Of a stretch of 64,000 nt of DNA, positions 1 to 38,755 are shown one piece after another. The stretch comes from Xestospongia bergquistia (lineage: Eukaryota; Porifera; Demospongiae; Haplosclerida; Petrosiidae), in NCBI GenBank assembly GCA_963965975.1, contig OZ014411.1:6123001-6187000 (forward strand), read 5' to 3'. Below the pieces are notes generated by a model, which searched no databases, was not told the origin of the DNA, and worked only from the letters and a program-made list of their open reading frames with translations. Numbering within the stretch: position 1 is the first letter of the stretch; each line of letters starts with the position of its first letter. A program made the position numbers and the translations under genes.

Positions 1-2128
1 ATGTTCAACATGAAGTGATAACCAAAGATGTTGAATGTCAGTTTAACTATCTCATCCCTTCTCTTGGTATGTCACTAATATATTGTCATGTAGTGATATT
101 ATTTTATTAGACAAGTTAGAGTATCTTGATGGTACTGGTGTTCATATAGCTGGTAGGAAACTTTTCCTAATCCAAGGAGAGAACAGTTGCTTATTAAATT
201 GGGTGGAGTATGGTCTAAGAATTAACATTCCTCATGGAACTATACCTCTTGGAGAAACTTGTGAAGTTTCTATTGCAGCAATTGTAGGGGGACAGTTTAA
301 GTGTCCCTCTGATACAATGTTAGTTAGTGCAGTTTATGCTATTTCTGTTTCCAAAGCACTCCTTCAACCAGTTCAGTTATCTATTCAACACTGTGTGTCA
401 ATAGAGACACAAGAACACACTGGTTACTTGAGTTTTGTTACAGCTGATCTGTATCAACCTGACCTTCCTTATAAAATGCAATTAGAAGAAGAGGGACAGT
501 TCTATCCTGGTAACCAATATGGCAGTATTAATCTTACAAAGTTCTCTATAAAGGGAATTATTAAAGCTCTTATGACACCAGTAAGATGGCTGTTTGGATA
601 TGATGATGTTGAACAACAAGAAACATTGTCGTCGTCATCTGAAGATGATACACAGTTTGTGGATGCCCACACAGGTTTAGCAACACATACCTCAGAAGGT
701 AATAATGTATTTCGTTTTATCTAGAGTTGGTGTATTATACTTTTATTATAACATCATAGATATGCATCAGTCTCCAGTCAACTTATATGTAGGTCAGGTA
801 GTGTATGAAGTGAAGTGTCATAACAAATGGCTCATGAGATTTCTAGTAGCTCAACATCTTGATGCTCTTTTAAAAGTATATCATCATTTTATAAGATTAT
901 ATTTATTAAAAAATTTTCTTGTAGTACATTGACACTTCACTTCCAAATGTTGAGAAAGATGTTGTTGTATTCTTTAAATTTCTAGAGAAGAATGGATATG
1001 TTGAGTTAGTGATTGGAGAAGAACAGGAACATCCTTGTCAAGGATGGAGTGTCTATCCTCATTCTTATCCTACTAAGGTATATGTCAATAATGACTCATA
1101 TTATTTATTATTAGTTAGTTCATTTAATATGAATAAAGCTGAATACTGTTACAGCAATTATTATAGGGATAGAGAATACATTTTTTATAATTATAATAGT
1201 CAATGCCATGCAACTCTGTTATTGCAGCTATAACACCAATTGGCAATTGAATGTTTACATAACAATACTGCATTAATATATAAATGAAAATTGATAGACA
1301 AAATTTAATAAGTGAAGTGCAATAACACTAATTATGTATATAATTTATTCGTAGATATATCAAAGAGCTGTAGACACATATGGAGCATGTTCTCCTCCCC
1401 AGTTTCCATCATGTTTGATTACAGTATCTGCTATTGTCAGTGCTACTACAGTCCCAGTACTTCAATATGGTATTAGCTTGAGAGGTATTAGTAATGAAGG
1501 AGACCTTACTCAGAAAATCTATATTGTGAGATTACTTGGTAAGATGTATCACTTATATACAACCAATCATTGTTTTTATATAAATAGCTACTGATACACA
1601 AGAGAAAAGAAAGGATATTACTAACAGTGAGTACATTTTTATAAAAGATTGTTAATTATATCCTTCCTTGCATACCAATTTACTATTATATTTAATTGAT
1701 AATATTCTGACCCCTGAACTCTAAGTTTAATAATCATAGAAGCTAATTTAGCATATACATATAACATACTAACTTTAACATTATATTTGTGATGTTATCC
1801 TTTTATTTTAGAACCAGATGAAAAACCCAACCCATCTGAAATATTTCGTACTCACATTGATGATCTTTGTGATGCTTTTGCTGTTCATTTTGATCGAATT
1901 ATTAATAGTCTCTTTGCCAAAAAACTAATAGGCCAATCAGTACTAGAGTCTGCAACAATAGAAGGTGTCTCTAATTATTACAAAGCCAGCAAACTAGTTC
2001 ATATACTGTATGGTCTGTTACTAGTACATAAAGATCCTGATCAGTATTTAGTTAAGATATGTGATGTACTATTAAAACAACATGATCAGGTATTAACTGA
2101 CATTGTTATTAGTATAAGAACTGACTAA
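1..2128 (+). CDS. 3' part of a ZU5 / UPA-like / CARD-like protein (upstream tandem copy, 5' end outside window)
   Basis: Exons read as 1-66, 111-698, 760-875, 925-1077, 1355-1538, 1588-1626 and 1812-2128, all with GT-AG borders and one continuous frame ending in TAA. Their lengths match the last seven exons of the complete copy at 5702-12873, except the first, which is cut by the window edge. The 588-nt exon encodes a ZU5 domain (GLRINIPHGTIPLGETCEV is the typical core). The next three exons are beta-rich and sit where UPA follows ZU5 in UNC5 and PIDD, so I call them UPA-like. The last exon encodes about 100 helical residues resembling a CARD. Kelch and Death exons presumably lie to the left. 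Domain calls are by eye; ZU5 is secure, UPA and CARD less so. Confidence 0.8.
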
Positions 2129-5701: not shown

Positions 5702-8700
5702 ATGGCCACTGGAGTATCTTCAGGTTAGTACAATATCACGTAGTCATATATTACCATATAATTATATTTGATCTCAAGATATGGTATATATCATTCTCTA
5801 CAGGACAATATAAACTTGATAGTAGAGGTGGTCATCACACTCAAGTGATTGGTGACTGTCTATATTTATGGAGTGGGAATCAGCCAAACTTACCTCGAGT
5901 ACACAACAATAATAAGAAAAAGAGACTCACATCTCAAGTACAAATATTCAATATTACCTCTGGTAAATGGGATACTAAACATACCAAAGGGAATCCTCCA
6001 CTAGGAGTACTTAGTTATTCCTGTACTACATTGAACAACAAGATCTATTACTTTGGAGGATACTGTGGTCATGACAACTGCCATCATAACAGTATTAATG
6101 AACTAGATACTTCCACTCTAACCTGGACACAGATATCACAAACAGATGATAGGAGACCGGTAATGAAGAGAGCTGATGCTGGTTTGATGTTGAATGAATA
6201 TGGAGGAATACATCGTCTTCTAGTTATAGGAGGTCAAGGATCCCCACCCTCTACAAAACTACCACAAGCTCAGTATATTCGTATACCCATTGGTGGAGTA
6301 CGTACTAATGAACAGAACCTATATAACATATCTACTAGTAAGTACATTAATATATCATATTATACTATTAGATATCATATTACTATCATAGAGTACTGCT
6401 ATTGTGTTGAATCATCTAAAAAATTTATGGCATGTATTTTGATATCTATAAATACTCACTATTCCACCTGATAACTATTTTATACTGTTTGCTAACTTAC
6501 TAAAAGTAGATGAACACTACAGCAGTACTTTATAGTATATGTAATTATTGTATGATGAATGGATGTATGAAAGTAGTAGTAGTCAATTTTTAATAAATAA
6601 TTTTAGTATAATAGTTTCAATAATACATTAATCATCAGTTGACAAACCATTATTTTATTGATTATTATATTATGACCAAATTCCTACCTGACATAGTAAC
6701 AGGTAATAGTAAAGATTACAAGTTTTGAAGTAATAGTAATAGTTATAGTAATTAGGATTTTCAAAATTGAGGTAATAGTAATAGAAATAATAATTGAAAG
6801 GAAGTAATATAGTTAGTGTTGTGTTATTGTGCATTGCAATTAAAACACAAAACTTGTCAGAAAGCATTCTTTTAAGTTCCTTTATCAAATCATTCAAGTG
6901 AAACTATCACCTGTCTTTGAAAAGCTTTCATGATGGTACCCTTAGAATGTGTCTTGACAAAAAGATGACAAAGTATGAAAATTGTGATATTTTCATTTAT
7001 GCTAGCATTCTTGATCCACAATTTAAGCTGAAGTGGTATACTGACATAATGAGGTGGAAGAAATTATGTTGAGATTCATTCGTATGGCAAAAACCATTCA
7101 AAATGGTGATACTACTCAGTCTATAACTGATCCATGTGAACCCTCACCTTTCAAAAAGAAGAAATCTAGTCAATTGTTAAGCTATATATTCAGTCAGACA
7201 GAACGATGCCAAGAGAAGGAGATGCTGCTTACCTTTCTAAACCTTATTTGTCTGAGAGTGATGAGAACATTAGGGAAGTTAGCTCATTGCATTCTTTCTA
7301 TTCCTGCCTCATCTGGACCTGTCGAATGACTATTTAGCATTGCAGGAAAAATTTTCCAGCCTGAAAGATGTCACTTAACTGATTCCCTCTTTGAAAAACT
7401 AATGTTTATTTAATGAAATCCTAATGTATTAAGTTAAGCCATTTTCCAATAGTATGTAATAGTAATTTGTACTAGTTACTATTAGTTAGTTATGTAATAG
7501 TAATTAGTTAGTTATGTAATAGTAATAGTAATATATTACAAGTCAGTAATAGGAATAGGAATAGGAAAATTTAAATTAATAGTAATAGTAATATATTACA
7601 ATTGCCTGTAATTGACCCCATGACTGAATCCTACTATGATAAAAGTATGATGTGTGTTTTCTTTGTTCTACTTTTAGATGAATGGACAATACCTGATATC
7701 AGTGGACAGTGTATGCCACCTAATAGTAGCTTTATTATGGAAATGATACATAATACCAGAGCAATCATCTTTGGTGGTATAGTTAATGACAAATCACGTA
7801 ATACTATATATATAGTGGACATCATCAATAATACATTGGTATGTTATATTATCATTTATATACTGACTAATGACATGTTATAATGAATGTTAGTTGAGTT
7901 CATTTGTCTATAATTAGCACTGGCAGACTATCACTAAATCTGATCCTGCAGTACATTGGCCAGAGGAAAGGAGCCTTCATGCTGGCATTATAATCACTGG
8001 ATCTATATCACCTGTACTAGTGGTGATAGGTGGTATGGATATTTATAACAAAACACTAAAAGATTGCTGGATACTGGATATTAATAAAAAGTTATGGACA
8101 AAGGTATATCATCATGTGTTAGTTCTTCTAACAAGTTCTATGATAGTATGTATCTATTAAGTAGTAGTAGTATCGATTGTAAATGGCATATTTTATACTG
8201 TGTCTTAGCAGTGTCAGTTACAAGTAATTAGTAAGTTTATAGTAAGAATCACACAATGTGTTACTTGAAGCAGTATCAGTTACTATACTGTAGTGTATCT
8301 TGTCTTTAATATTGACACATAATGATGTAATAATATTTATATCTCTACATACTATAGATTAATCTACCTGACTCTGTCACTGAGAGATGGGCCCATTCTC
8401 TATCAGCTTACATGATGGGACCACATTGTGTGTGGTTAGTTATAGTAGGGGGTGTAGTTAGATGTGATGGTACATATGTCACAGACCCCAATATAACAAT
8501 GTTAATAAAACTTGGTAAGTAAATTAATTATTATGTTTACATTGCTATATATTCTTTGTGGATATGATAGGAACTATGGTATGATAATTTAGTTGACTAA
8601 TAAACTGTTTTGATGTACTACTGATATCCATATATTTATCATAAGAGATAATACTGTATATATTATATAAGTGTTCATTTAGTACATGTACATGATGTAC

Positions 8701-11700
8701 TGTTATATAGGTGACCTTGTTATGTACTACAATTTAGTATAGTCTTATTACTTCCATACATGTTATACTAGTAGTAGACTACCACATTATATACTGACAT
8801 TAGTAATCTTATGCTCTCTCATATAGTCCTCAATGATGATCAATGGTCAGTAGGGTTTGTACTAGACTCTAATGAACTGACCTCAACTGATAACTATCAA
8901 CAAAGAGTATTAAAACAACTCACAGAAGTAAGGAGACAATGGATAGAACAACAACAAACAAAATCAACTCAAGACAACTTGTCAACTAAGCAGACAGTTC
9001 TTCAAACTAACTATCAAGATGATCTTTTAGTTGCTCAACAAAACATACAAAGTCTTCAAGAAAGACTACTAGAACTAGAATCTCAACAAGATAGACATCA
9101 AGGTAACTTAGCAATTTTGATGTAGGTAGTTAAATAGTTAAGTAGATGGATAAATAGTAGACAGATAGTCCATATATCCTCTGTATGTTAGACTTTGTTT
9201 TTATGACAATCCATTCCTATGTAAATTCATCTATCTGTCCATTTTTTCTTTATCTGTCCATCATTTATTAAACCATCACACTTTGTTTGTCTATTAGACC
9301 ATCTTTTGTAATGAATTACAACCATGTGTTCTCAAATCATTGATCTATCAGTCCATCTCTTCATCTTTATCTTGCCATCTATTTTTTTATCTGTGTCCAT
9401 TCAGCTGTTATAGAGATGGATGGATAAAGAGATTAAGGAGAGACAAATGGAGTTTGCTCCCTTTTTCAATAAATTTATTTTATTTATCATTTGTTTATTT
9501 GTCTCCCTGTCTATCTGTTTGTTAATGGTGGGGGTGGACAGATGGACATTTAAAAAAGTTGCTAAATGAAGTAGTATCTCTGTCTCTGTCTTTTTATTCA
9601 TCCATCTATACTGACATCTATTATACATCTTTCAATCAATCTATTTATATCATAGTAGTGTGTGGAGGGAGAAAATGATGGATGGATATGAGAGGAAAAT
9701 AGATGGCTCAAACAAATCATTTTCTTCCCTATAATAATATCCATTGTCTAGTTATTAATACAAGTGATCATCATCACATATTACATGAGAAAGACAGCTA
9801 TATAGCTCAACTCACTTGTAAACTACAAACTGTTATAAACGAGAAAGAAAAGAAAGAAGAGATGATAACAACACTCCAAACACAACTACAAGAGTATAAA
9901 CAACAGAACTTACCTAGGACTCCTCAAAATACTACAGGTTTGTTATTATTATAAATATAACAGTTCATTACTTTATATACCATATATCACAGATATTATC
10001 AGTTATCTTCCTAAACTGGCAGTTGTTCTACAACCAGTACAAGAAGATTGGGAACTACTGGGTCATCAACTTAATATAGATCAGTTTGTACTGACTGATA
10101 TCAAAAGTAAAGGAGATTCTACTAAACAGATGAAGTACTTGTTAGAGGAATGGTCTATAAAAGGAGGTACATTGACGCAACTTGAAGACGCTCTACTTCA
10201 TATTGGCAAGAATGATGTCATTTCTGGTATGTTATATTACAGTGTTAATTTTATATTTGGTATACATGATTTAACAAATTAAGAAGTATAGTTTAACATC
10301 TCATAATTGAAGCATCCAGTAATATTAACACTTCAACAAAATTTGTTTAAAGAATTGTTTATATTGATATTTCTATTTAATAGTTAATATCAAAAAATGA
10401 TTACATAAGAAAGAAGGAAGTACAACTTTTTAACTTTGTGTATTGTAGCCCAGAATACTGTAATTGACATTTCTGTTGTCTGGGCTACAATACACAAAGC
10501 TAAGAACTTACACTTACTTGTTATTTGTTAAAAGAATTGTTAATATTATTAGATGCTTCAAGCCTGAGATGTTAAACTATACTTCTTAATTTATTAATTA
10601 TAGTATTCACACACAAGATTCTACCTAATGAATAGTAAAATCAGGTTAAAACAGGCAATGATATCACCATTTCTATGTGTTATTATAGTTTGTTTCCAAA
10701 TATAAAGGATTACATGAACTAATGAGAACAGAGGAAAGAGTTCAGGAAGAAGATTCAAATGTTCAACATAAAGTGATAACCAAAGATGTTGAATGTCAGT
10801 TTAACTATCTCATCCCTTCTCTTGGTATGTCACAGTATATTGTCATGTAGTGATATTATTATATTAGATAAGTTAGAATATCTTGATGGTACTGGTGTTC
10901 ATATAGCTGGTAAGAAACTTTTTCAAATTCAAGGAGAGCATAATTACTTATTAAATTGGGAGGAATATGGTCTGAGAATTAACATTCCTCATGGAACTAT
11001 ACCTCCTGGAGAAACTTGTGAAGTTTCTATTGCATCAATTGTAGGGGGACAGTTTGAGTGTCCCTCTAATACATTGTTAGTTAGTGCAGTTTATGCTATT
11101 TCTGTTTCCAAAGCACTCCTTCAACCAGTTCAGTTATCTATTCAACACTGTGTGTCAATAGAGACACAAGAACACACTGGTTACTTGAGTTTTGTTACAG
11201 CTGATCTGTATCAACCTAGTCTCCCTTATAAAATGCAATTTGAAGAAGGGGGACAGTTCTATCCTGGTAACCAATATGGCAGTATTAATCTTACAAAGTT
11301 CTCTATCAAGGGAATTATTAAAGCTCTTATGACACCAGTAAGATGGCTGTTTAGGTATGGTGATGTTGAACGACAAGAAACATTGTCGTCGTCATCTGAA
11401 GATGATACACAGTTTGTGGATGCTCACACAAGTTTAGCAACACGTACCTCAGAAGGTAATAATGTATTTCGTTTTATCTAGAGTTGATGTATTATACTTT
11501 TATTATTATATCATAGATATGCATCACTCTCCAGTCAACTTATATGTAGGTCAGGTGGTGTATGAAGTAAAGTGCCAAAACAAATGGCTCATGAGATTTC
11601 TAGTAGCTCAACATCTTGATGCTCTTTTAAAAGTATATTATCATTATATAAGATTATAATTTTTAAAATTTTTTCTTGTAGTACATTGACACTTCACTTC

Positions 11701-12873
11701 CAAATGTTGAGAAAGATGTTGTTGTATTCTTTAAATTTCTAGAGAAGAATGGATATATTGAGTTAGTGGTCGGAGAAGAACAGGAACATCCTTGTCAAGG
11801 ATGGAGTGTCCATCCTCATTCTTATCCTACTAAGGTATATGTCAATAATGACTCATATTGTTATCAGTTAGTTCATTTAATATGAATAAAGCTGAATACT
11901 GTTACAGCAATTATTATAGAGATAGAGAATACATTTTTTATAACTATAATCGTCAATGCCATGCAACTCTGTCATTCCAGTCTTAATACCAACTGGCAAT
12001 TGATAGCTTATATAACAATACTGCAATATATAAATAAAAATTGATATACAACTATATTGAATGAAGTGCAATAATACTAATTATGTATATAACTAATTTA
12101 TTCATAGATATATCAAAGAGCTGTAGACACTTATGGAGCATATACTACTCCCCAGTTTCCATCATGTTTGATTACAATATCTGCTATTCCCAGTGCTACT
12201 ACAGTCCCAGTACTTCAATATGGTATTAGCTTGAGAGGTATTAGTAATGAAGAAGACCTTACTCAGAAAATCTATATTGTGAGATTACTTGGTAAGATGT
12301 ATCACTTATATACAACCAATCATTGTTTTTATATAAATAGCTATTGATACACAAGAGAAAAGAAAGGATATTGCTAACAGTGAGTACATTTTTATAAAAG
12401 ATTGTTAATTATATCCTACCAATTTACTATTATATATAATTGATAATATTCTGATCCCCTGAACTCTAACCTTAATAATCATAGAAGCTAATTTAGCATA
12501 TACATATAACATACTAACTTTAACATTATATTTGTGATGTTATCCTTTTATTTCAGAACCAGATGAAAAAACCAACCCATCTGAAATATTTCGTACTCAC
12601 ATTGATGATCTTTGTGATGCTTTTGCTGTTCATTTTGATCGAATTATTAATAGTCTCTTTGCCAAAAAACTAATAGGCCAATCAGTACTAGAGTCTGCAA
12701 CAATAGAAGGTGTCTCTAATTATCGCAAAGCCAGCACACTAGTTCATATACTGTATGGGCTGTTACTACTACATAAAGATCCTGATCAGTATTTAGCTAA
12801 GATATGTGATGTCCTATTAAAACAACATGATCAGGTATTAACTGACATTGTTATTAGTATAAGAACTGACTAA
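5702..12873 (+). CDS. Kelch - coiled coil - Death - ZU5 - UPA-like - CARD-like protein, 1089 aa
   Basis: Fifteen exons: 5702-5723, 5804-6337, 7678-7838, 7918-8103, 8358-8514, 8827-9102, 9752-9937, 9993-10226, 10708-10824, 10868-11455, 11517-11632, 11682-11834, 12108-12291, 12341-12379, 12557-12873; 3270 nt, open throughout. Residues 8-353 form about six Kelch blades (YYFGGY, LVIGGQ, IIFGGI, VVIGGM, VIVGGV). Residues 375-495 are Gln/Glu/Lys-rich coiled coil. Residues 508-585 are a Death domain (DWELLGHQL to LEDALLHIGKNDV). ZU5 lies in 630-760, a beta-rich UPA-like part in 821-971, and a CARD-like helical domain in 990-1085. There is no signal peptide or membrane segment, so a cytosolic adaptor or sensor is likely. 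Death before ZU5 is the reverse of UNC5, PIDD and ankyrins. The acceptors of exons 9 and 10 were chosen to keep the frame; nearby alternatives give stops. The ligand and function are unknown. Confidence 0.82.
6900..7413 (+). pseudogene. Decayed hAT transposase C-terminal fragment inside Kelch intron 2
   Basis: One frame reads YASILDPQFKLKW, the LDPRFKL-type motif of hAT transposases, then stops; after a frameshift a second frame reads to LSIPASSGPVE. A TGA stop then replaces the Arg codon of the expected ERLFSIAGK, and LFSIAGKIFQPERCHLTDS follows, which is the hAT dimerisation domain. It lies between Kelch exons 2 and 3, flanked by GTAATAGTAATAG-type simple repeats (about 6700-6800 and 7440-7610). 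The element is dead and incomplete; no terminal repeats or target duplication could be set. Confidence 0.8.
9129..9740. repeat. Cryptic ATCT/ATCC simple sequence in an intron
   Basis: The intron between the two coiled-coil exons is dominated by loose tetranucleotide sequence (ATCTGTCC, CCATCTAT) and its reverse complement (GATGGATAAA). The mix of both orientations could fold, but no clean unit repeats. Copy 3 has lost most of it by deletion. Confidence 0.5.
10276..10592. mobile_element. Foldback MITE-like element with nested hairpin
   Basis: The ends are inverted copies: AAATTAAGAAGTATAGTTTA at the left and its complement ending at 10592, extending about 60 bases with small mismatches (TCTCATAATTGAAGCATC opposite GATGCTTCAAGCCTGAGA). 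Inside is a second near-perfect stem: GTGTATTGTAGCCCAGA (10438-10454) pairs with 10479-10495. It has no coding capacity. It sits in the intron between the Death exon and the linker exon. Target duplication is unclear. Confidence 0.65.
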
Positions 12874-17089: not shown

Positions 17090-20000
17090 ATGGCCACTGG
17101 AGTATTTTCAGGTTAGTACAATATCACGTAGTCATATATTACCATATAATTATATTTGATCTCAAGATATGGTATATATCATTCTCTACAGGACAATACA
17201 AACTTGATAGTAGAGGTGGTCATCACACTCAAGTGATTGGTGACTGTCTATATTTATGGAGCGGTAATGAGCCAAACTTACCTCGAGTACACAACAATAA
17301 TAAGAAAAAGAGACTCACATCTCAAGTACAAATATTCAATATTACCTCTGGTAAATGGGATACTAAACATACCAAAGGGAATCCTCCACTAGGAGTACTT
17401 AGTTATTCCTGTACTACATTGAACAACAAGATCTATTACTTTGGAGGATATTGTGGTCATGACAACTGCCATCATAACAGTATTAATGAACTAGATACTT
17501 CTACTCTAACCTGGACACAGATATCACAAACAGATGATAGGAGACCGGTAATGAAGAGAGCTGATGCTGGTTTGATGTTGAATGAATATGGAGGAATACA
17601 TCGTCTTCTAGTTATAGGAGGTCAAGGATCCCCACCCTCTACAAAACTACCACAAGCTCAGTATATTCGTATACCCATTGGTGGAGTACGTACTAATGAA
17701 CAGAACCTATATAACATATCCACTAGTAAGTACATTATGTATCATATTATACTATTAGATATCATATTACTATTATAGAGTACTGCTATTGTGTTGAATC
17801 ATCTAAAAAATTTATGGCATGTATTTTGATATCTATAAAATTTAATACTCACTATTCCACCTGATAACTATTTTACTGGTTGCTAACTTACTAAAAGTAG
17901 ATGAACACTACAGCAGTACTTTATAGTACATGTAATTATTGTATCATGAATGGATGTATGAAAGTAGTAGTAGTCAATTTTTAATAAATAATTTTAGTAT
18001 AATAGTTTCAATAATACATTAATCATCAGTTGACAAACCATTATTTTATTGATTATTATATTATGACCAAATTCCTACCTGACATAGTAACAGGTAATAG
18101 TAAAGATTACAAGTTTTGAAGTAATAGTAATAGTTATAGTAATTAGGATTTTCAAAATTGAGGTAATAGTAATAGAAATAATAATTGAAAGGAAGTAATA
18201 TAGTGAATGTTGTGTTATTGTGCATTGCAATTAAAACACAAAACTTGTCAGAAAGCATTCTTTTAAGTTCCTTTATCAAATCATTCAAGTGAAACTATCA
18301 CCTGTCTTTGAAAAGCTTTCATGATGGTACCCTTAGAATGTGTCTTGACAAAAGGATGACAAAGTATGAAAATTGTGATATTTTCATTAATAATGCTAGC
18401 ATTCTTGATCCACAATTTAAGCTGAAGTGGTATACTGACATAATGAGGTGGAAGAAATTATGTTGAGATTCATTCGTATGGCAAAAACCATTCAAAATGG
18501 TGATACTACTCAGTCTATAACTGATCCATGTGAACCCTCACCTTTCAAAAAGAAGAAATCTAGTCAATTGTTAAGCTATATATTCAGTCAGACAGAACGA
18601 TGCCAAGAGAAGGAGATGCTGCTTACCTTTCTAAACCTTATTTGTCTGAGAGTGATGAGAACATTAGGGAAGTTAGCTCATTGCATTCTTTCTATTCCTG
18701 CCTCATCTGGACCTGTCGAATGACTATTTAGCATTGCAGGAAAAATTTTCCAGCCTGAAAGATGTCACTTAACTGATTCCCTCTTTGAAAAACTAATGTT
18801 TATTTAATGAAATGCTAATGTATTAAGTTAAGCCATTTTCCAATAGTATGTAATAGTAATTTGTACTAGTTACTATTAGTTAGTTATGTAATAGTACTTA
18901 GTTAGTTATGTAATAGTAATAATAATATATTTATTACAAGCCAGTAATAGGAATAGGAATAGGAAAATTTAAATTAATAGTAATAGTAATATATTACAAT
19001 TGCCTGTAATTGACCCCATGACTGAATCCTACTATGATAAAAGTATGATGTGTGTTTTCTATGTTCTACTTTTAGATGAATGGACAATACCTGATATCAG
19101 TGGACAGTGTATGCCACCTAATAGTAGCTTTATTATGGAAATGATACATAATACCAGAGCAATCATCTTTGGTGGTATAGTTAATGACAAATCACATAAT
19201 ACTATATATATAGTGGACATCATCAATAATACATTGGTATGTTATATTATCATTTATACACTGACTAATGACATGTTATAATGAACGTTAGTTGAGTTCA
19301 TTTGTCTATATTTAGCACTGGCAGACTATCACTAAATCTGATCCTGCAGTACATTGGCCAGAGGAAAGGAGCCTTCATGCTGGCAGCATAATCACTGGAT
19401 CTATATCACCCTTATTAGTGGTGATAGGTGGTATGGATAGTTATAACAAAACACTAAAAGATTGCTGGATACTGGATATTAATAAAAAGTTATGGACAAA
19501 GGTTAGTTCTTCTAACAAGTTCTATGATAGTATGTATCTATTAAGTAGTAGTATCGATTGTAAATGGCATATTTTATACTGTGTCTTAGCAGTGTCAGTT
19601 ACAAGTAATTAGTAAGTTTATAATAAGAATCACACAATGTGTTACTTGAAGCAGTATCAGTTACTATACTGTAGTGTATCTTGTCTTTAATATTGACACA
19701 TAATGATGTAATAATATTTATATCTCTACATACTATAGATTAATCTACCTGACTCTGTCACTGAGAGATGGGCCCATTCTCTATCAGCTTACATGATGGG
19801 ACCACATTGTGTGTGGTTAGTTATAGTAGGAGGTGTAGTTAGCTGTGATGGTACATATGTCACAGACCCCAATATAACAATGTTAATAAAACTTGGTAAG
19901 TAAATTAATTATTATGTTTACATTGCTATATATTCTTTGTGGATATGATAGGAACTATGGTATGATAATTTAGTTGACTAATAAACTGTTTTCATGTACT

Positions 20001-20405
20001 ACTGATATCCATATATTTATCATAAAAGATAATACTGTATGTATTATAAGTACTATAACTCTTCTTAGTGTTCATTTAGTACATGTACTGTTATATAGGT
20101 GACCTTGTTATGTACTATAACTTAGTATAGTCTTATTACTTCCAAACATGTTATACTAGTAGTAGACTACCACATTATATACTGACATTAGTACTCTTGT
20201 GTTCTCTCATATAGTCCTCAATGATGATCAATGGTCAGTAGGGTTTGTACTAGACTCTAATGAACTGACCTCAACTGATAACTATCAACAAAGAGTATTA
20301 AAACAACTCACAGAAGTAAGGAGACAATGGATAGAACAACAACAAACAAATTCAACTCAAGACAACTTGTCAACTAAGGAGACAGTTCTTCAAGCTAACT
20401 ACTGA
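17090..20405 (+). CDS. Kelch protein truncated in its coiled coil, 416 aa (third copy)
   Basis: Exons 17090-17111, 17192-17725, 19076-19236, 19316-19501, 19739-19895 and 20215-20405; 1251 nt ending in TGA. The first five exons have exactly the lengths of those of the complete copy. The long second exon differs from it by about one residue (Gln to Glu near residue 30). All about six Kelch blades are present. The coiled-coil exon stops early because TAT CAA GAT of the complete copy is TAC TGA GAC here. The product would be a Kelch propeller with a short tail and no death-fold domain. It may be a real short protein, or a recently broken gene whose downstream exons are still intact (next entry). 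Confidence 0.75.
18291..18807 (+). pseudogene. Decayed hAT transposase fragment, duplicate copy
   Basis: Same fragment as at 6900-7413, in the same intron, with the same frameshift and the same TGA before LFSIAGKIFQPERC. It therefore inserted and died before the tandem duplication and was copied with it. Small differences include an extra AAT-type insertion near 18,388. Confidence 0.8.
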
Positions 20406-21174
20406 GACGATCTACTAGTTGCTCAACAAAACATACAAAGTCTTCAAGAAAGACTACTAGAACTAGAATCTCAACAAGATAGAAAAGGTAACCTAACAAT
20501 TTTGATGCAGGTAGTTACTTATATAAGTAGATGGATAAATAGTAGACAGATAGTCCATATATCCTCTGTATGTTAGACTTTGTTTTTATGACAATCCATG
20601 TATCACTTATATACAACCAATCATTGTTTTTATATAAATAGCTACTGATACACAAGAGAAAAGAAAAGATATTACTGACAGTGAGTACATTTTTATAAAA
20701 GATTGTTAATTATATCCTACCAATTTACTATTATATATAATTGATAATATTCTGATCTCCTGAACTCTAAGTTTAATAATCATAGAAGCTAATATAGCAT
20801 ATACACATAACATACTAACTTTAACATTATATTTGTGATGTTATCCTTTTATTTTAGAACCAGATGAAAAACCCAACCCATCTGAAATATTTTGTACTCA
20901 TATTGCTGATCTTTGTGATGCTTTTGCTGTTCATTTTGATCGAATTATTAATAGTCTCTTTGCCAAAAAACTAATAGGCCAATCAGTACTAGAGTCTGCA
21001 GCAATAGAAGGTGTCTCTAATTATTTCAAAGCCAGCAAACTAGTTCATATACTGTATGGTCTGTTACTAGTACATAAAGATCCTGATCAGTATTTAGCTA
21101 AGATATGTGATGTCCTATTAAAACAACATGATCAGGTATTAACTGACATTGTTATTAGTATAAGAACTGACTAA
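20406..21174 (+). pseudogene. In-frame Kelch-to-CARD fusion exons beyond the TGA
   Basis: After the TGA the coiled-coil exon continues open to a donor at 20487. A 39-nt exon (20642-20680) and the CARD-like terminal exon (20858-21174, TAA) follow. All boundaries are phase 1, so apart from the TGA the message would encode a 562-residue Kelch, coiled coil and CARD-like fusion. The second coiled-coil exon and the Death, linker, ZU5 and UPA-like exons are missing because of a deletion with its breakpoint near 20,597. Whether this is translated by readthrough or re-initiation, or not at all, cannot be told from sequence. Confidence 0.65.
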
Positions 21175-21981: not shown

Positions 21982-22286
21982 CTGAAGACTCCTCTCCATC
22001 AGATATATTTCGTATTCATCTTGGTCATCTTTGTGATGCATTTGCAGCAAATCTTGATCGAATATCTGATAGTCTCTTTGCTAATGGACTTATAGGAGAA
22101 GCTGTTCTACAATCTACAACTATAGATGGTGTCTCTAATTATCATAAAGCAAGACAAGTAGTCCATGAACTATATAATCAGTTAAAAACACATAGTCAAC
22201 CAGAGCAATATTTAACTATGATTTGTAATGTATTGTTAAAACAAAATGATCAGAGACTAACTGACATTGTTAACACTATGTTATAA
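21982..22286 (+). CDS. Diverged CARD-like terminal exon
   Basis: Preceded by a pyrimidine-rich tract and CAG acceptor, this 305-nt exon opens in phase 1 and runs to TAA. It is clearly related to the CARD-like exon ending at 21174 (both share DLCDAFA/HLCDAFA, SLFA, LIG, DGVSNY/EGVSNY, VLLKQ, LTDIV) but far more diverged than the tandem copies are from each other. It could be an alternative last exon of the third copy, or the surviving end of an older paralogue. The open frame that follows (22290-22493) looks like AT-rich noise. Confidence 0.6.
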
Positions 22287-27000: not shown

Positions 27001-30000
27001 ATTAAGTCTTTAATCTTGATGTCAGATACAGGGAGTTCCTCTTCTAAAGCTCTCTGATAGATCTCTTCTAACTTATCAGAGAAAGTCCCTTTCATATATT
27101 CTAATATTGGTTGAGGACTAACAGGATCATGACAACAACCACCTCCATCACAACAATTAGCTAGAGACCAAATGTACATGTTAAATAATAACATACTAAT
27201 ATATTATACAGCATGATATATTCAAAACGTAAGGATTTTGCACTATAATTTCTAGAAAGCTTTCAGAACAGTACTACCATTCAATACACTCTACCTCATA
27301 TCTATAATTATATATAATGTAATCCATTACCTGTTTCATGTACAGTACAGTTACTGTCGGGACTAGCCCCTCCCCCTAAATGAGGTTGAGTACGTTGTTC
27401 TGATGTTATAGATGATGATGAACATTCACTAGTAGACGATGGAGACCGCTCCCTCCCTTGGTCACTTATAAGACGACGACTAATATTTGACTTGAAAAAT
27501 TTTTTCTATAGAAAGAAAAGACATAATAAATAATGTACTAATATAATATACAATACAAAATACTTCACAATAGCTATTTATCATATAAAAAGTCCATACA
27601 TTGACAATTCTCACATTGACAACATTCTCACACACAACAAATAGTCAATACCAAAATATAAGAGATTTAGAAACATACATTTTGAGATATAGTAGATCAC
27701 TATATTAGTACTACATTTCCTATTACTTTATAACATAACTGATCACTATATTAGTACTACATTTCCTATTACTTTATAACATAACTGATCACTATATTAG
27801 TACTACATTTCCTATTACTTTATAACATAACTGATCACTATATTAGTACTACATTACCTATTACTTTATAACATAACTGATCACTATATTAGTACTACAT
27901 TACCTATTACTTTATAACATAACTGATCACTATATTAGTACTACATCACCTATTACTTTATAACATAACTGATCACTATATTAGTACTACATTTTCTATT
28001 ACTTTATAACATAACTGATCACTATATTAGTACTACATTTCCTATTACTTTATAACATAACTGATCACTATATTAGTACTACATCACCTATTACTTTATA
28101 ACATAACTGATCACTATATTAGTACTACATTTCCTATTACTTTATAACATAACTGATCACTATATTAGTACTACATCACCTATTACTTTATAACATAACT
28201 GATCACTATATTAGTACTACATTACCTATTACTTTATAACATAACTGATCACTATATTAGTACTACATTTCCTATTACTTTATAACATAACTGATCACTA
28301 TATTAGTACTACATTACCTATTACTTTATAACATAACTGATCACTATATTAGTACTACATCACCTATTACTTTATAACATAACTGATCACTATATTAGTA
28401 CTACATTACCTATTACTTTATAACATAACTGATCACTATATTAGTACTACATCACCTATTACTTTATAACATAACTGATCACTATATTAGTACTACATTT
28501 CCTATTACTTTATAACATAACTGATCACTATATCAGTACTACATTTCCTATTACTTTATAACATAACTGATCACTATATTAGTACTACATCACCTATTAC
28601 TTTATAACATAACTGATCACTATATTAGTACTACATTACCTATTACTTTATAACATAACTGATCACTATATTAGTACTACATTTCCTATTACTTTATAAC
28701 ATAACTGATCACTATATTAGTACTACATCACCTATTACTTTATAACATAACTGATCACTATATTAGTACTACATTACCTATTACTTTATAACATAACTGA
28801 TCACTATATTAGTACTACATTTCCTATTACTTTATAACATAACTGATCACTATATTAGTACTACATTTCCTATTACTTTATAACATAACTGATCACTATA
28901 TTAGTACTACATCACCTATTACTTTATAACATAACTGATCACTATATTAGTACTACATTACCTATTACTTTATAACATAACTGATCACTATATTAGTACT
29001 ACATTTCCTATTACTTTATAACATAACTGATCACTATATTAGTACTACATCACCTATTACTTTATAACATAACTGATCACTATATTAGTACTACATTACC
29101 TATTACTTTATAACATAACTGATCACTATATTAGTACTACATTTCCTATTACTTTATAACATAACTGATCACTATATTAGTACTACATTACCTATTACTT
29201 TATAACATAACTGATCACTATATTAGTACTACATTTCCTATTACTTTATAACATAACTGATCACTATATTAGTACTACATCACCTATTACTTTATAACAT
29301 AACTGATCACTATATCAGTACTACATTTTCTATTACTTTATAACATAACTGATCACTATATTAGTACTACATCACCTATTACATAACTGATCACTATATT
29401 AGTACTACATTTCAAGTGATATCATGAGGTCTAAAGTACTCTATTAGTTATGATAGTACTTCCTTAATTGAATTGTATACAGTAAACTGTGACATCATAA
29501 TTTGTAATAATTATATTTATTCAATATTAATATGGTATAATTCACTGTTATTGATTGATCAGAAAGCAATTACACATTTTTCACTGCTACATCATTGAAA
29601 AATATGTAATTCTAATCTGATTGGCTGTTGCCATAGACACAAACACATGGACATTACTAGAGACTATTTAATGAGGATAGAAAAACACATATGGATCTTA
29701 TGGTTTAGAGCAGTATTCCTCAAAAAAATGGATGCTACTCAAACAAGGAAAGCTATATATGAATTTTCTGCACATGTTATAGCCTCCTAATAATTTAAGT
29801 CATTAAGAATTTCAACTCTCATAGGAGGGAGCTCTAAGCTTAAAAGAATAGATCTTCTGTGTCATTAATAAATAATATGTAAGATTATACGTTGTATATG
29901 ACCAAAAGGATAGCTCAATAGTGACTATAGCCTCTCATTTGTAGTCAAGTTGTCTTCTTCTCAAAGCAACAATCCTTACAGGAATACGATTAATTTGTAA

Positions 30001-37315: not shown

Positions 37316-37420
37316 AGAAACGCAATTGCTCAACAAGCTTATTATTCAGAAGCTGATCCGAGGTTCTTGAGGAGATCTTTTTCGTCTTTCTAGTTGTTTA
37401 CCCTGCAATCTACTGCTAAT

Positions 37421-37966
37421 ATGTCTACTACCCCAAAGAAAGTAACCAAGCCCAAGGCCGTCAAGAAGAAATCCGCTTCTGAACATCCCCCTTACAATGA
37501 AATGATCAAGGCTGCTGTTGTCGCTTTAGCTAGCAGATCTGGTTCAAGTCGTCAAGCTATTGCAAAGTACATCAAAGCTAACTACAAGGTTGGTGAGGGA
37601 ATGGAAACTCATTTGAAGATGGGATTGAAGCGTGCCGTGGAGAATAGGTCTCTGATGCATGTCAAGGGGACTGGTGCCTCTGGTTCTTTCAAATTAGTTA
37701 AAGTTGAAAAGAAACCCAAAAAGCCTGTCGCTCCCAAGAAACCCGCCGCCAAGAAGACAACTCCAAAGAAAGATACTCCCAAAAAGGCAGCTAAGAAAAC
37801 TCCTGCTCCCAAGAAACCAGCTAAAAAAGCTCCAGCCAAGAAAGAGGGTGTAAAGAAAACAACTACGAAGAAACCAGCTTCCAAAAAGCCTGCAGCAGCT
37901 AAGAAGGCAACAAAGCCAGCAGCAAAGAAGCCAGCCGCAAAGAAATCCACTCCAAAGAAGAAGTAA
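37421..37966 (+). CDS. Linker histone H1, 181 aa
   Basis: A single exon encodes a short Lys-rich N-terminus (1-21), a winged-helix globular domain (22-93: HPPYNEMIKAAV, SSRQAIAKYI, LKRAVENRSL, GTGASGSFKL), and a C-terminal tail built of KPAAKK/TPKKxxPKK-type repeats ending KSTPKKK. It binds nucleosomes and linker DNA in the nucleus. I start at MSTTPKK; an ATG nine codons upstream (37394) gives a non-histone extension and sits in the leader. The length and lack of introns fit replication-dependent H1 genes, as does the 3' stem-loop. GC content is higher than in neighbouring genes. The strong open frame on the opposite strand is a shadow. Confidence 0.96.
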   Translation: MSTTPKKVTKPKAVKKKSASEHPPYNEMIKAAVVALASRSGSSRQAIAKYIKANYKVGEGMETHLKMGLKRAVENRSLMHVKGTGASGSFKLVKVEKKPKKPVAPKKPAAKKTTPKKDTPKKAAKKTPAPKKPAKKAPAKKEGVKKTTTKKPASKKPAAAKKATKPAAKKPAAKKSTPKKK

Positions 37967-38011
37967 ACATCTGAACTTTCTTATTCACTGACTATTCTTT
38001 TTTTTCTAAAC

Positions 38012-38027
38012 GGCTTTTTTCAAAGCC
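38012..38027 (+). terminator. Histone mRNA 3' stem-loop
   Basis: GGCTTT TTTC AAAGCC forms a 6-bp stem with a 4-base loop, preceded by AAAC and followed by ACCA. This is the metazoan replication-dependent histone processing signal bound by SLBP, 45 bases after the H1 stop. A purine-rich AAAAGA follows at about 38,039, where the U7 site is expected. The transcript is therefore probably not polyadenylated. Confidence 0.88.
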
Positions 38028-38044
38028 ACCATTTTCTCAAAAGA

Positions 38045-38755
38045 TTTCATTTGGTTGTTATACATTTAATCTTGTATTATACCACTCATAGCCACCATGT
38101 TTAACATCGTCCTTATATTTTCCATTTTAGATGCTTTGCATCTTTTTATTCTCAAAAATGTAGTTACTAGTTTGTCTATTGTAAAAATTAATTTAGTTAC
38201 TAATTTTTGGGTGGAGCTCATTTGCAGTTTCGTGTGGACATGGTAATGTAAACAATCGAGTATTAAATATTTTTCAAAAAAATTACCTCAGAAATTTTCT
38301 AGGGGAGGGAAGCGAAACAAAGTGTGAGTGTTAATTATTGTTATTTAGTTCATAAGAGGTATAAAAGAACTTAAGCCTTTAGCAAGCAGAGTGGTTGAAT
38401 TTTGTTAGAAATAAGAGGTTTTTCTGCAGTTACCAAAGTCACAAAAGTATAGCATCATAGCAAGCAACCAGACTCTTGAAGTTTTTCAACTGTAATGTAA
38501 AAATGTAGTTAAACTGTGCCAATCAAAACACTACAAAAGTTCATCAGATTTATAACATGACCTGTCTTTAGCTACTTGACTCGAATGTATAAGTATGTAG
38601 ATGAAGATGGCCTAGCCATACATCAATTATATATAATCTGCATTCTCTACACATAATAATAACATTATTAAGTTTCATTTCTTCTGTCCAGAGAAATGTA
38701 TTGTGCATACAATATTATAAACGCAAACCGCCATAAACGATGATTTTTCTTGATA
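38045..38755. other. Intergenic region between H1 and WDFY3
   Basis: No exon, repeat array or RNA gene seen. Confidence 0.5.

Follow-up and report, generated by a model that had tools for sequence, protein, structure and literature searches.

The genome of the sponge Xestospongia bergquistia contains a predicted 15-exon gene, copy B (5702..12873, + strand), whose 1089-aa product combines a Kelch propeller, a putative coiled coil, a Death domain, a ZU5 domain, a UPA-like region and a CARD-like end, in this order. Coordinates refer to the window, i.e. the whole stretch of 64,000 nucleotides that was analysed (contig C1, 6123001–6187000; the genome comprises 146 Mb in 21 contigs). We propose, with moderate confidence, that copy B is a member of a tandem family of autoinhibited intracellular sensors or adaptors that use death folds as output.

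The rebuilt coding sequence of copy B is 3270 nt long (1089 codons plus stop), contains no internal stop and shows GT-AG borders in 14 of 14 introns; the sequence of the window is AT-rich and the introns are short. All 15 exons and their GT-AG borders are kept in two neighbouring copies, Y and A, and the reading frames of B, A and Y are open across the 15 exons, which bears out the single 1089-residue frame of the preliminary description. Exons 1–5 (5702..8514, + strand, as are all features of copy B given below; residues 1–353) encode the Kelch propeller (PF24681, E = 2.4e-34), with seven Kelch or propeller models above cut-off and about six repeats by visual count of the translated sequence. 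Exons 6–7 (8827..9937) encode a Gln/Glu-rich stretch which, judged by eye in the translation and by a crude heptad count, may form a coiled coil. It is followed by the Death domain in exon 8 (9993..10226; PF00531, residues 515–586, E = 5.2e-7, 30.2 bits versus a cut-off of 22.6), by a linker in exon 9 (10708..10824), and by exon 10 (10868..11455), in which the ZU5 domain (PF00791, residues 654–727, E = 1.3e-4) exceeds its cut-off by a narrow margin (22.6 versus 21 bits) and precedes an acidic linker. Two elements were seen by eye in introns of copy B: a remnant resembling the end of a hAT transposase in intron 2 (6902–7420), an intron of 1340 bases in B, 711 in Y and 180 in A, and a MITE-like element with inverted ends in intron 8, between the Death and ZU5 exons (10283–10593).

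Kelch, Death and ZU5 thus exceeded their Pfam cut-offs as the preliminary description led one to expect, but UPA and CARD were absent from the families listed for B at E ≤ 10, a listing in which HMMER filters discard most matches above about 0.1. UPA also gave no PDB or hhalign sequence match; CARD gave no Pfam match at E ≤ 10 in the paralog Z (see below) and no PDB sequence match, and the UPA-like and CARD pieces of Z were without matches in the Pfam search. Exons 11–13 (11517..12291) lie at the UPA position after ZU5 and align with further ZU5 genes of this genome, with which they share candidate intron positions: the introns of B after residues 859 and 910 coincide with candidate donors in loci L003, L005 and L007. 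From position and alignment we infer that these exons may encode a UPA; no sequence search confirmed the identity of the UPA-like module proposed earlier.

The C-terminal domain (exon 15, 12557..12873) was modelled with AF2. Three of the five models were poor (pLDDT 48.8, 46.7 and 41.3), and the other two reached 91.0 and 90.0. The best model (pTM 0.82) predicts a six-helix CARD fold, with a first helix split into residues 7–13 and 15–24 and five more helices. CARDs were the nearest solved structures to this model in both Foldseek and VIA-align, with no Foldseek match at E ≤ 0.001. CARD proteins made up 19 of the 20 best VIA-align rows, which include 1z6t, 5wve, 8xqk, 5juy, 1dgn and 8jol (which we take to be CARD proteins); the remaining row is a designed protein, one such protein (7vty) scoring among the CARDs in this structure comparison. 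These predictions support the assignment of the C-terminal domain of B as a CARD-type death fold. The fold prediction, in contrast to the profile searches, thereby agrees with the CARD-like end described previously and completes the arrangement of a Kelch domain and two death-fold modules with ZU5 between them, of which Kelch, Death and ZU5 are identified by Pfam.

Self-BLAST of the window revealed long duplications, and 29 kb of sequence upstream of the window was added to the analysis of the resulting array. The array consists of an inverted and diverged copy Z, followed by Y, A (across the window edge), B, C and an orphan CARD-like exon, and ZU5/UPA-like fragments are scattered upstream of the window; these tandem paralogs were absent from the preliminary description. 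The 3′ end of copy Y, ∼5.4 kb upstream of the window, has no stop where B has one (it ends in RTNL). The first exon of A lies ∼3.1 kb upstream of the window and its 3′ part at 1..2128 (+ strand). In copy C (17090..21174, + strand), exons 1–6 are followed directly by exons 14–15, which joins Kelch-coiled coil to the CARD exon; the Death-ZU5-UPA-like exons are missing, exon 6 contains a stop, and the copy is probably a pseudogene. The orphan exon (21984..22271, + strand) shares 61% identity with exon 15 of B. Copy Z, an inverted gene about 14.6–21.3 kb upstream of the window, has the same domain series as B by homology, with Death (E = 1.9e-8) and ZU5 above the Pfam cut-offs and a ZU5 frame that is interrupted by a stop or a border problem. 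Its identity to B is 67.5% in Kelch (a few residues having been filled in), 86% in Death, 28% in the ZU5-UPA-like part and 62% in the CARD exon; this unevenness along the gene suggests an exchange of modules or rates of evolution that differ between them. Some 19.9–20.1 kb upstream of the window, Z carries a Gly/Ala-rich hydrophobic stretch after K-F-S, where B has its acidic linker. Elsewhere, the window holds 37.5 tandem copies of a 46-base unit with 96% matches (27695–29411) and a frame that by eye resembles a lysine-rich linker histone, followed by a histone 3′ stem-loop (37394–38051; Rfam RF00032, 36.3 bits).

The stop in exon 6 of C, the interrupted ZU5 frame of Z and the hAT- and MITE-like intron insertions seen by eye would fit a decaying array in which most copies are pseudogenes, but we regard this as very improbable because all 15 exons are open in B, A and Y, with dS > dN. 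Indels between these copies were multiples of three in all cases in exons (5/5 for A/B, 2/2 for Y/B and 5/5 for A/Y), and in 11/30, 9/26 and 7/18 cases, respectively, in introns, where intron 2 was omitted from each pair owing to its length. From Death to CARD, dS exceeded dN, with dS ≤ dN in only 7, 0 and 0 of 200 bootstraps (A/B, B/Y and A/Y); the coiled-coil exons alone gave no significant sign of constraint, as dS ≤ dN occurred in 40, 70 and 45 of 200 bootstraps.

Divergence among Y, A and B is distributed unevenly along the gene. Nucleotide identity ranged from 77.8 to 92.2% over the six 60-residue bins of the Kelch part (residues 1–360) and from 86.5 to 98.9% over the next twelve (residues 361–1080), and dS was 0.27–0.39 in Kelch versus 0.07–0.10 from Death to CARD. 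Judged by identity and dS, the Kelch part of these genes appears to be older than their signalling part, which is the outcome expected of conversion or exchange. With a Kelch dN/dS of 0.41–0.44, i.e. no overall positive selection, this divergence is no proof of diversifying selection and may reflect only gene conversion downstream of Kelch. The pattern fits an arrangement as in variable recognition with constant signalling. Kelch proteins often act as scaffolds or ligase adaptors, and a Kelch dN/dS below 1 would also suit a protein of this kind without an immune role, whose death folds, like those of ankyrins, would do no more than mediate assembly. We consider this unlikely: neither BTB nor any other ligase domain was found among the 14 Pfam families listed for B, and a multicopy array with exchanged modules would be more typical of recognition genes.

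A search yielded at least 33 ZU5 matches in the genome, and 10 of these loci were examined (L001–L008, of which L006 is copy Y, plus A and B). The family ZU5 profile matched the ZO-1 ZU5 structure (E = 0.002), and L001, judged by eye, looks like a protein of the ZO-1 type. L002, on another contig, encodes a coiled coil, with which the sequence examined begins, then Death (E = 4.8e-9) and ZU5 (29.7 bits), both above the Pfam cut-offs, a UPA-like region and a CARD-like end unlike that of B (Pfam CARD 13.2 bits, below the cut-off of 23.9). L003, L004, L005 and L007 have ankyrin-like repeats before ZU5 (by eye), and L008 has ZU5 preceded by a frame without Pfam match. These five genes resemble B in their homologous ZU5 (hhalign of B/A/Y against L004, L005, L007 and L008: 96%, E = 2.4e-9) and, for L003, L005 and L007, in the two candidate donor positions mentioned above. 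In contrast to B, no Kelch was seen in the stretches examined of these loci, and the end of L004 gave a weak Death match below cut-off (E = 0.019).

Copy B might instead represent two genes or two main isoforms, Kelch-coiled coil-Death and ZU5-UPA-CARD, divided at intron 8, which is long and variable (481 bases in B, 224 in A and 333 in Y) and is followed by an exon 9 with a Met and a weak acceptor with a poor pyrimidine tract. However, the phases join in frame, all three copies retain the acceptor AG, intron 9 is only 43–44 bases long, and Z and L002 have their domains in the same order. We therefore judge such a division to be improbable.

How would such a protein work? In the reading that we prefer, the Kelch propeller would be the recognition end and the coiled coil would cluster the protein, while the Death domain in the middle and the CARD at the end would provide two death-fold outputs. 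ZU5 and the UPA-like region would restrain the CARD, and perhaps Death too. Ligand binding or damage to the N-terminal part would free the death folds, which could then nucleate assemblies of death folds and attract caspases or adaptors. An intracellular location and an immune role of B are likewise inferred, and coupling of a propeller sensor to death-fold signalling, as suggested in the preliminary description, is plausible.

In NLRP1 and CARD8, which are inflammasome sensors of humans, a ZU5-UPA unit (FIIND) is followed by a CARD, and autocleavage takes place between Phe and Ser (PMC3210808); in NLRP1, ZU5 is reported to block release of UPA-CARD (PMC8081665), and UPA to promote CARD filaments (PMC7794386). 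B resembles these proteins in its ZU5, the region at the UPA position, its C-terminal CARD (in B by fold) and an F-S at the place of cleavage. In contrast to them, it begins with Kelch, coiled coil and Death, lacks NACHT (absent from the 14 Pfam families listed), has no counterpart of the catalytic His and gave no FIIND profile match. The ZU5 of B might thus self-cleave at Phe769|Ser770 (codons at 11299..11304, + strand, where CARD8 has its F|S autocleavage site; PMC3210808) with the halves staying together, and loss of Kelch-Death-ZU5 would then free a 320-residue UPA-CARD. The F-S occurs as K-F-S in B, A, Y and Z and as D-F-S in L002, the residues after it resemble those of CARD8 (FSIKGII versus FSLMGIL), and the order of ZU5, UPA-like region and CARD-type fold is the same. 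However, a His before the Ser is described as required (H270 in CARD8, H942 in rat NLRP1; PMC3210808, PMC8081665), and whereas that of CARD8 lies 27 residues before the Ser, B has no His at 727–770. Moreover, L005 and L008 have F-C in place of F-S, and there is no profile link to FIIND, the FIIND profile compared covering the second half only. Such autoprocessing therefore appears rather unlikely, and because the catalytic His has no counterpart we prefer an autoinhibited, not necessarily cleaved switch.

B shares with UNC5, PIDD and ankyrins a ZU5, a region at the UPA position and one Death domain in the same protein, but its Death domain (515–586) precedes ZU5 (654–727) and a CARD-type fold forms the end. 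The earlier statement that Death comes last in known ZU5-UPA-Death proteins sets B apart in this respect; it overlooks NLRP1 and CARD8, in which CARD follows ZU5-UPA (PMC3210808). Likewise, of the claim that no characterised protein with this order is known, the unusual Kelch-coiled coil-Death front stands, whereas the ZU5-UPA-CARD half has a precedent in the FIIND-CARD proteins of vertebrates, so that the C-terminal half of the order is not new. Among the titles and abstract openings listed for matches in PMC full text, which leaves most subscription journals outside, Kelch-coiled coil-Death before ZU5-UPA-CARD was not described.

According to one study, death-fold proteins have expanded greatly in Amphimedon, where many of their architectures are unique, and FIIND or UPA-ZU5 is fused to some animal TRADD-N proteins (PMC8195603); another lists cnidarian combinations of NACHT with ZU5, CARD and Death domains (PMC8260672). 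An odd domain combination in a sponge is thus not surprising by itself. B is akin to the Amphimedon Death/TRADD-N expansions in that death-fold proteins were multiplied and shuffled within one lineage, but those are defined by TRADD-N (PMC8195603), which none of the searches made reported for the copy B protein. An NLR survey describes FIIND-CARD for NLRP1 of humans and for some NLRPs of fish, and for invertebrates only CARD- or Death-type NLRs (PMC11508797).

Against this background, the array could be an inflammasome-like sensor family of an early-branching animal with the output of NLRP1/CARD8 (a ZU5-UPA switch, an F|S self-cleavage site and a CARD) and a degradable N-terminal half of Kelch and Death, the sensor half diverging and the output being kept uniform by conversion. 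We give this reading little credence; if true, FIIND-CARD signalling would be far older than vertebrates, or would have been invented twice. With ZU5, a UPA-like region and a CARD under a Kelch sensor in a sponge, the origin of switches of the NLRP1/CARD8 type would become open to testing, and the known immune repertoire of an early animal lineage would gain a class of receptors.
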